From NCBI GenBank assembly GCA_025937835.1, contig JAICQO010000075.1, forward strand, positions 1 through 32,952: a DNA stretch of 32,952 nucleotides. Reading direction: 5' to 3'. The notes beneath the pieces were generated by a model. The model was not told the DNA's origin and made no database searches. It worked only from the letters and a program-made list of their open reading frames with translations. The translations under genes and the position numbers were made by a program. Below, in pieces: positions 677 to 32,952 of the stretch (the stretch's first letter is position 1; every line of letters starts with the position of its first letter). This DNA is from Polyangiaceae bacterium. GTDB lineage: Bacteria; Myxococcota_A; Polyangia; Polyangiales; Polyangiaceae.

Positions 677-700
677 AGTCACAGCGCGGCGTGGTGCGGG

Positions 701-895
701 GATGCAACAAGAAGGTCGGAAGGGGGGAAGATCGGAAGGGTTTGTTTTTTGGGCCTCGTGTAGACCGCCTCGTCCCGCCAAGACCTGACAGTCCGGCAAG
801 AGGCTCCAGCTGTCGAGAAACCCAAACCAATCCCTCTCACACCGAACTTATCGTCCCCGTTCCCTTCCTCCCCTTCCTATCTTCCAACCCAAAAA
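701..895. repeat. Purine-rich dispersed repeat, copy A, with pyrimidine-rich right arm
   Basis: Gene-free stretch between two convergent genes. The left part carries GATGCAACAAGAAG at 701-714 and GAAGATCGGAAGGG at 727-740, followed by a T-rich run. The right part (about 855-890) is pyrimidine-rich and roughly the reverse complement of the left, so the whole forms a loose inverted repeat. The left arm recurs after the diguanylate cyclase gene at 32656-32710 and, in shorter form, after the HD gene at 24485-24525. In all three places it starts about 20-30 nt after a plus-strand stop codon. It could be a terminator-like structure or a small non-autonomous element. Confidence 0.6.
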
Positions 896-31675: not shown

Positions 31676-32632
31676 ATGAAGATCCTGCTGGCCGACGATG
31701 AACCGATTGCACGCACCATGCTTCAGCATTGGCTGACTGGGTGGGGTTACACGGTCATATCGGTCAAAGACGGCGAAGCGGCGCTCGAAGCCCTGAAAAA
31801 TGACCCGGAGATCCGCCTGGCGGTGCTCGACTGGGTGATGCCCAAGGTCGACGGCGTCGAGGTCTGCCGGCACATCCGCAGCGGTCAGAGCGAGCCCTAC
31901 ATCTACGTCCTGCTGCTCACGGCTCGCGACAACAAGACGGACATCGTCGATGGGCTCGACGCGGGCGCCGACGACTACCTGATCAAGCCCTGCAATCCGC
32001 TCGAGCTCAAGGTGCGGCTGCGAGCTGGGCGGCGCGTGGTGGAGCTCCAGGAGGAGCTGGTCGCCGCGCGCGAGAAGCTTCGCTACGAGGCCATGCACGA
32101 CGGCCTCACCGGCCTGCTCAATCGACGCGCGGTACTGGATCAGCTCGACCGCGAGCTGTTGCGCGCCGGCCGCAGCGGAAATCCGGTTGCCGTGATGATG
32201 GGCGATCTCGACCACTTCAAGGCCGTGAACGACACCTTCGGTCACGCCGCGGGCGACGCGGTCTTGAGGGAAGCTGCGAGCCGGATCAAGAGCTGCGTGC
32301 GCGCCTACGACTCGCTCGGGCGCATCGGCGGCGAAGAGTTTCTGTGCGTGTTGCCCGAGTGCACCACTGCCGTGGGTTACACCGTCGCGCAGCGGATCGG
32401 CGCGGCGCTCTCGCAAACGCCGCTCGCGACCCCGAACGGACCGGTGCCCGTGACGATCAGCCTCGGCGTCGCCTCCACCGAGCAGACCGGCGAAACCACC
32501 GCAGAAGGCCTGGTCCGCGCAGCCGACGCCGCCCTCTACCGCGCCAAGGCCGCCGGCCGCGCCCGCGCCGCCCTCGCCACCCCCGTAGACTTCGTTCTGC
32601 GACGGAGCGGCGAGCTCCTCGCCATCCAGTAA
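31676..32632 (+). CDS. Response regulator with GGDEF diguanylate cyclase domain (PleD-like, single receiver)
   Basis: The 318-residue protein has an N-terminal receiver (1-120) with the acidic pocket ADDEP, phospho-acceptor Asp52 (LDWVMPKVDG) and Lys104 (LIKP). A short coiled linker (about 122-137, VELQEELVAAREKL) leads to a GGDEF domain (about 138-300). The active-site motif is GGEEF (218-222), which is catalytically competent in other proteins, and RAYD (209-212) five residues before it is an inhibitory c-di-GMP site (RxxD). It should therefore make c-di-GMP when phosphorylated and be product-inhibited. No partner histidine kinase is adjacent. ATG 31676 has only a weak upstream purine tract. 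A purine-rich repeat follows the stop. Confidence 0.95.
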   Translation: MKILLADDEPIARTMLQHWLTGWGYTVISVKDGEAALEALKNDPEIRLAVLDWVMPKVDGVEVCRHIRSGQSEPYIYVLLLTARDNKTDIVDGLDAGADDYLIKPCNPLELKVRLRAGRRVVELQEELVAAREKLRYEAMHDGLTGLLNRRAVLDQLDRELLRAGRSGNPVAVMMGDLDHFKAVNDTFGHAAGDAVLREAASRIKSCVRAYDSLGRIGGEEFLCVLPECTTAVGYTVAQRIGAALSQTPLATPNGPVPVTISLGVASTEQTGETTAEGLVRAADAALYRAKAAGRARAALATPVDFVLRRSGELLAIQ

Positions 32633-32640
32633 CGTCACTG

Positions 32641-32819
32641 CGCGCGCAGCGAGGGGATGCAACAAGAAGATCGGGAAGGGTTGAAGATCGGGAAGGGATT
32701 TTTTGTTGGGTGAGCTAGCCGTCTCGTGCTCCGCCGAGCACTTGCGGCCGCAAGGCTTCAGCACCGACGACGCTGAAGCCCCGCCCCCCAACAAACCTTT
32801 CCGACCTTCCTCCCGTTCC
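32641..32819. repeat. Purine-rich dispersed repeat, copy B, with inverted arms and internal hairpins
   Basis: Starts about 9 nt after the diguanylate cyclase stop. Left arm: GATGCAACAAGAAG at 32656-32669, then GAAGATCGGGAAGGG twice (32666-32680, 32683-32697). TTTGTTGGG (32702-32710) is perfectly complemented by CCCAACAAA (32787-32795), and the right arm is pyrimidine-rich. The middle holds three hairpins: GTGCTC/GAGCAC, the 14-bp palindrome CTTGCGGCCGCAAG at 32741-32754, and a 9-bp stem 32754-32762 with 32772-32780. The right end touches the group II intron. Copy A resembles it downstream of another stop. Confidence 0.65.
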
Positions 32820-32823
32820 GGTA

Positions 32824-32847
32824 GGGACGGCCCTTACGGGCCGCCCC
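32824..32847 (-). ncRNA. Group II intron domain VI hairpin
   Basis: GGGCCG pairs with CGGCCC around a TTAC loop (plus-strand reading), extended by GGG/CCC after an A/C mismatch. The minus strand then reads CCCTAC, a plausible intron 3' end. A clear bulged branch-point A was not identified. Confidence 0.65.
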
Positions 32848-32853
32848 CCGGAC

Positions 32854-32887
32854 AGAACCCGGCGAGCGGATTTCCCGCACCGGGCTC
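32854..32887 (-). ncRNA. Group II intron domain V
   Basis: Exactly 34 nt, the canonical length. The 5' strand begins GAGCCCGG with the AGC catalytic triad and pairs with CCGGGTTC at the 3' side through 8 pairs including a G-T wobble. A 2-nt bulge and an upper GCGG/CCGC stem with a small GAAA-containing loop follow the expected order. Confidence 0.85.
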
Positions 32888-32952
32888 CCACCTTGGGTCA
32901 ACGGAGGGCGAAGCGTTCGGATGGCCAGGGATGATGGATGTGAGCCCGAGGA

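Follow-up and report, generated by a model that had tools for sequence, protein, structure and literature searches.

RmInt1 of Sinorhizobium meliloti is a IIB3, class D group II intron that lacks an endonuclease and uses a replication-fork primer, and for RmInt2 the two inverted repeats of ISRm17 both serve as targets, one of them always being on the lagging-strand template (PMC5894124). In Thermosynechococcus elongatus, one intron lineage comprises families F1-F6 with different EBS/IBS sequences and targets (PMC2882425). Two of the nine group II intron copies of Pseudomonas putida KT2440 are located in REP sequences (PMC1525189), and class C and IIC-attC introns are described with hairpin DNA around the target (PMC4424553, PMC7923331). 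Published work already covers introns that home to multi-copy elements, retargeting through the EBS, and the occasional copy in a REP palindrome (PMC5894124, PMC2882425, PMC1525189).

Here, we analyzed a window of 32,952 nt, which is the entire contig C86 of genome G000 (6.9 Mb, 227 contigs, 2.7% contamination in the bin). Its right end falls within a group II intron that is probably a mobile element homing to a species-specific, dispersed, palindromic, and purine-rich intergenic repeat. The chemistry is known, and the target is unusual. As in RmInt1 and RmInt2, an intron that probably lacks an endonuclease homes to a multi-copy element; the target described there is a transposon, whereas the target here is a non-coding intergenic palindrome. 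The T. elongatus families resemble our case in that one lineage carries different guides for different targets, but the retargeting described there took place inside one genome, whereas here it lies between hosts and is sometimes directed onto the host's own repeat. The P. putida copies likewise lie in dispersed extragenic palindromes, but as a minority, whereas here all seven junctions do so in a fixed register. The literature searched contained no account of such an intron-repeat association in myxobacteria, and no intron subfamily restricted to an intergenic palindrome of one species and having relatives in the palindromes of other hosts. Mx.xa.I1 and Sg.ce.I1 are introns of variety g2, whose hosts we take to be myxobacteria. 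By description only, they resemble the present intron, as judged from its relatives, in that their proteins lack an endonuclease domain (PMC3552965).

The features of the window are as follows.

698..753, plus strand: second repeat copy (arm), intron-free, near the left edge of the window, found by repeat pattern match
31676..32632, plus strand: gene with a response-regulator receiver and GGEEF (assigned by eye), ending just 5' of the repeat
32655..32712, plus strand: intact left arm of the repeat, GGATGCAACAAGAAGATCGGGAAGGGTTGAAGATCGGGAAGGGATTTTTTGTTGGG, with a pattern match at C86:32659-32677
32775..32814, minus strand: 3' exon, the inner portion of the right arm of the palindrome, with G as its first base, fitting GGAA/GGGAGGAAG... 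in intact copies (the slash marks the junction here and below)
32815..32854, minus strand: domain VI and the intron 3' terminus ...CCTACCGGAAC, from the Rfam match and the sequence
32855..32887, minus strand: domain V, 33 nt, with an AGC triad and a GAAA-type loop, paired GAGCC...GGTTC
32815..32952, minus strand: 3' part of the group II intron, 138 nt (RF00029), identical on contigs C174 and C215, with the remainder beyond the contig end

Homologues of the gene at 31676..32632 were found in six of the seven other genomes of the genus. The GC skew over the window was flat and gave no information on strand or replication direction.

The Rfam model RF00029, covering domains V and VI, matched positions 32889-32815 of the minus strand with 47.1 bits (gathering score 40, E 2.1e-06), confirming the group II intron 3' end that a preliminary description had placed at the right edge. 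Domain V, which had been described there as exactly 34 nt long, spans 33 nt (32887-32855), and the Rfam alignment shows a one-base deletion in it. Both features reported in the same description, an AGC triad and full pairing of the lower stem, are present; as read from the sequence, the lower stem has eight pairs, one of which is G-U. The A eighth from the intron 3' end is the presumed branch point, judged by its position. On the minus strand, the 3' exon reads GGGAGGAAGGTCGG... The intron copies on C86, C174, C215, and C225 part right after ...CCTACCGGAAC and a common G, and the intron/exon boundary is therefore fixed by comparison at 32815/32814. Thus, the last intron base is 32815 and not 32821 as previously given, and the exon begins at 32814 within the right arm of the purine-rich palindrome, as had been proposed.

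Contigs C174 and C215 each carry the same intron 3' end at one terminus with 100% identity, and the start of C225 holds its last 21 nt. With a relative's 5' end as the query, 5' halves were recovered from the termini of C186, C194, and C18, where the contigs break approximately 75-175 nt into the intron, short of EBS1. All copies of this subfamily in G000, at least four in number, break at contig ends, and neither TIGR04416 nor a relative's protein matched a reverse transcriptase in the G000 assembly. The 5' and 3' halves, which no contig joins, probably belong to one subfamily, judging from copy number and the common repeat. If the exon ends at GGAA, the 5' end of the subfamily is GCAGCGCC. 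This end does not conform to GUGYG, the usual but non-universal 5' end of group II introns, which appears as GTGCG in the relatives from G045, G065, and G162. Altered 5' splice sites are known among group II introns (PMC4424553). The assignment to group II was kept despite this 5' end because of domains V/VI and the conserved 5' region. The 5' ends of loci L072, L086, L090, and L088 read GCAGCG, GTAGCG, GTACGCG, and GTAATCG, respectively; they are not GTGYG, and the first G is retained.

Outside G000, the intron end had no match in the seven other genomes of the genus, and exact searches of IMG/VR for the subfamily gave no match. A scan of genome contigs yielded 14 related 3' ends, none of them from G000. 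Plasmid records contained distant relatives only, with DNA identity of at most 79% among the matches listed and protein identity of about 50%. Within G000, two further elements were observed. The end of C39 (L071, G000:C39:1-488) carries a related but distinct intron subfamily with the start GTAATCGCC, whose 5' exon is a tandem array of about 2.9 copies with a period of 19-20 bp. A further group II-like domain V (L004, G000:C78:20483-20606) scored 36.5 bits, under the gathering score.

All seven junctions of the subfamily in G000, comprising four of four 3' junctions (C86, C174, C215, and C225) and three of three 5' junctions (C186, C194, and C18), lie within copies of the repeat in the fixed register GGAA/G, and repeat pattern matches are present on all seven contigs. 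The 3' exons start with GGGAGGAAGG (C86), GGGGATTTTG (C174), GTTCGGAACA (C215), and GGGATTTTAT (C225), and the opposite repeat arm follows 137, 65, 142, and 115 nt past the exon start, respectively. The three 5' exons end with GAAGACGGGAA, GAAGACTGGAA, and GAAGACAGGAA. In every case the intron interrupts a repeat arm on its purine strand, between GGAA and G. The pattern of the repeat had 73 matches in G000 with up to two mismatches, compared with 3 for the reversed pattern, and 0-3 matches in each of seven congeners. The repeat makes up about 0.2% of the genome, assuming 200 bp for each of the 73 matches, and the chance of four of four insertions falling into it is about 2e-11. These results support the earlier proposal that the repeat is a preferred target; since all seven subfamily junctions lie in the same repeat, we regard it as the homing site.

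Comparison with empty copies of the repeat in G000, which had been suggested in the preliminary description, showed that intact copies read as joined exons at GGAA/G. Intact copies with an uninterrupted junction carry GGAA/GGGAGGAAG, GGAA/GGGATTTT, and GGAA/GGGGATTTT, matching the exons, and exon halves are found joined in an intact copy, for example GACTGGAA/GGGAGGAAGATCGGGAAGGGATTTTT. The underlying list held 106 GGAAG sites in the examined stretches of G000, including coding non-repeat sites and the three 5' intron junctions. In synteny comparisons with G002, G005, and G006, matches were obtained for the genes to the left of the intron, and the right-hand genes matched none of C186, C194, and C18; these comparisons therefore yielded no orthologous empty site, and intact G000 repeats served as a stand-in.

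The exon sequences also bear on how the copies arose. Homologous recombination or gene conversion might have spread a single insertion from one repeat copy to the others, which would be in line with the arms common to the repeat copies and the identical intron tails on C86, C174, and C215. We consider this unlikely, since the exon bases vary by copy both at the 3' junction (GGGAGGAAG, GGGGATTTT, GGGATTTT, and GTTCGGAAC) and at the 5' junction (GACGGGAA, GACTGGAA, and GACAGGAA), indicating that different repeat units were interrupted. The interruption of different units in different copies suggests independent insertions. The position of the four 3' and three 5' copies at contig ends, the absent intron body, and the 2.7% contamination might also reflect an assembly artefact, in which a collapsed repeat from a different organism of the bin became fused to contig ends. 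That explanation is extremely improbable, because short reads are expected to break inside a multi-copy element of 2 kb, and the boundary is precise at seven independent contig ends, each with G000's own repeat. We favor homing of a mobile intron to the repeat.

Relatives of the intron were found in other hosts, and the complete ones encode a reverse transcriptase/maturase (TIGR04416, 360 and 352 bits). In G010, five of five distinct 3' exons inspected (L031, L066, L067, L104, and L186) and three of three 5' exons (L086, L092, and L096) lie in a different hairpin repeat, CAACGCRRAGRCGC, which had 34 matches in that genome versus 8 for the control. The sole 3' exon read in G161 is of the G010-type repeat (90 matches versus 3 for the control), and G163 contains one full copy within a CCAAGACG hairpin. 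The intron of G085 is probably in a host repeat as well, its 5' exons being CCGCAGAGG and CCGCGGAGG; at L094 (G085:C29), an intron copy is cut off about 200 nt in and is directly followed by CCGCAGAGGACGC repeat sequence. A repeat target in all relatives was rejected, since the exon stretches inspected from G056, G011, G045, G065, G113, and G162 contained no such repeat. G046 was mixed, with several exons that look coding, and the G162 copies are located in homologous coding sequences. The full-length intron of G045 lies outside the G010-type repeat, although that genome contains 38 repeat copies (control, 5). Because these relatives lie outside repeats, repeat targeting is a trait of some members and not of the whole lineage. 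In a tree of the 18 proteins retrieved here, G010, G161, and G163 formed a single clade, nested in a larger, well-supported one that also contained G113, G162, G045, G065, and G085. In G162, four near-identical introns (L161-L164) occupy the same place in homologous coding sequences that are YD-repeat-like by eye.

EBS1 pairing was compared among eight introns with both a 5' exon and domain I (G045, G065, G113, G162, G163, G020, G085, and C39). Domain I contains a hypervariable stretch, about 190-225 nt from the intron start, which base-pairs with the final 5-7 nt of the intron's own 5' exon. Counting G-U pairs and using one fixed alignment register, the contiguous EBS1-IBS1 pairs numbered 6, 6, 7, 6, 7, 5, 7, and 5, respectively. 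Non-cognate combinations gave a mean of 1.6 pairs, and only one of 40,320 permutations, the true pairing itself, attained the cognate sum; these values are to be read with the register having been picked after viewing the alignment and the splice site having been set partly by pairing in G113, G163, G020, and C39. Adjacent registers failed to pair; the exception was G020, where the exon consists of consecutive G residues. The copy from G033, a ninth one that had no part in setting the register, pairs 7/7 at the same register by eye (CTGGCTA with TAGCCAG). In the G085 row, the exon is that of copy C29, truncated ahead of EBS1, and the EBS1 is that of copy C192; the exon of C192 itself differs by one base from that of C29 and still pairs, as G-U. 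The second and third G162 copies were omitted from the matrix because they have one EBS1 in common. EBS2-IBS2 pairing was non-significant, with 2,322 of 40,320 permutations equally good. Among the EBS1, EBS2, and EBS3 pairings that characterize IIB introns, EBS1 was observed in the relatives and EBS2 did not reach significance.

These comparisons, made in the relatives, suggest that the target is set by an RNA guide that varies between lineages. The guide appears to have been re-tuned in the relatives to other sequences, in several hosts to the host's own repeats. The EBS1 of the G000 intron is absent from the assembly, and its pairing is extrapolated from the relatives: it is predicted to be approximately TTCCNGTC and to pair with the GACNGGAA stretch of the repeat, and EBS3 is predicted to read the G that opens the 3' exon. 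Reverse splicing into a repeat arm, on its purine strand, would then be guided by EBS1 and this G, with reverse transcription following. Pfam searches with two relatives' proteins found RVT_1 only and no endonuclease domain, which makes a replication-fork primer likely, as for RmInt1. Owing to the palindrome, every copy would present the same purine target on both DNA strands, so that one should always be on the lagging-strand template, as for RmInt2 in ISRm17, and the intergenic location would make insertion cheap for the host.

A broader reading, which we put forward tentatively and hold at slightly below even, is that a group II intron lineage of Polyangiaceae-like bacteria tracks the dispersed intergenic hairpin repeats of its own hosts, with EBS1 re-tuned at each host entry or repeat change, thereby gaining many harmless two-strand targets. 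The successive targets would be the GGAAGAC units of G000, CGCAAAGRCG of G010/G161, CCAAGACG of G163, and probably CGCAGAGG of G085. The association ties the scattered hairpin repeats of bacterial chromosomes to the RNA-guided retroelements inside them, two subjects usually studied separately. If the reading is true, the history of the intron guide could be read against the history of host repeats, and whether a palindrome benefits an endonuclease-less intron by presenting a two-strand target would be directly testable where the replication direction is known.

The preliminary description had found a preferred target attractive because class C introns favor terminator-like hairpins. On this view, a class C (IIC) intron would recognize the repeat hairpin as it would a terminator or an attC site. 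The targets are indeed long hairpins, with folding energies of -44 to -55 kcal/mol for three intact repeat copies, and a different intron, in G146, directly follows the complete hairpin of a similar purine-rich repeat. This view is nevertheless very unlikely to hold. The domain V triad is AGC, whereas that of the Oceanobacillus iheyensis IIC intron is CGC (PMC3669008), and the EBS1 pairing in relatives comprises 5-7 bp, whereas IBS1-EBS1 of IIC introns is described as 3-4 bp (PMC7923331). In addition, the intron interrupts the hairpin arm itself instead of following the stem; together with the triad and the pairing length in relatives, this differs from class C and IIC-attC introns. None of nine folded 5' exons, three of them from G000, had an exceptional hairpin (z -1.83 to 1.42) of the kind that class C introns have directly upstream of IBS1. 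The G045 5' exon, outside the folded set, has a short inverted repeat before IBS1, GAACATTT..AAATGTTC. A relative's protein scored 141-144.5 bits with solved IIC enzymes versus 147 with an LtrA-named chain and 138 with the maturase 6me0, which is presumably IIB; this comparison, weak as it had no class C positive control, also counts against class C. Assigning the class from PDB scores was discarded as not decisive, because LtrA, IIB, and IIC enzymes score alike (two further proteins were also scored). The intron of G146 at L174 (G146:C5, approximately 963-1035 of the reverse complement) lies directly after a complete hairpin (CTTCCTG/GTGCGCC) in class C fashion; it is a separate element with a different reverse transcriptase and fits the class C picture of the preliminary description.
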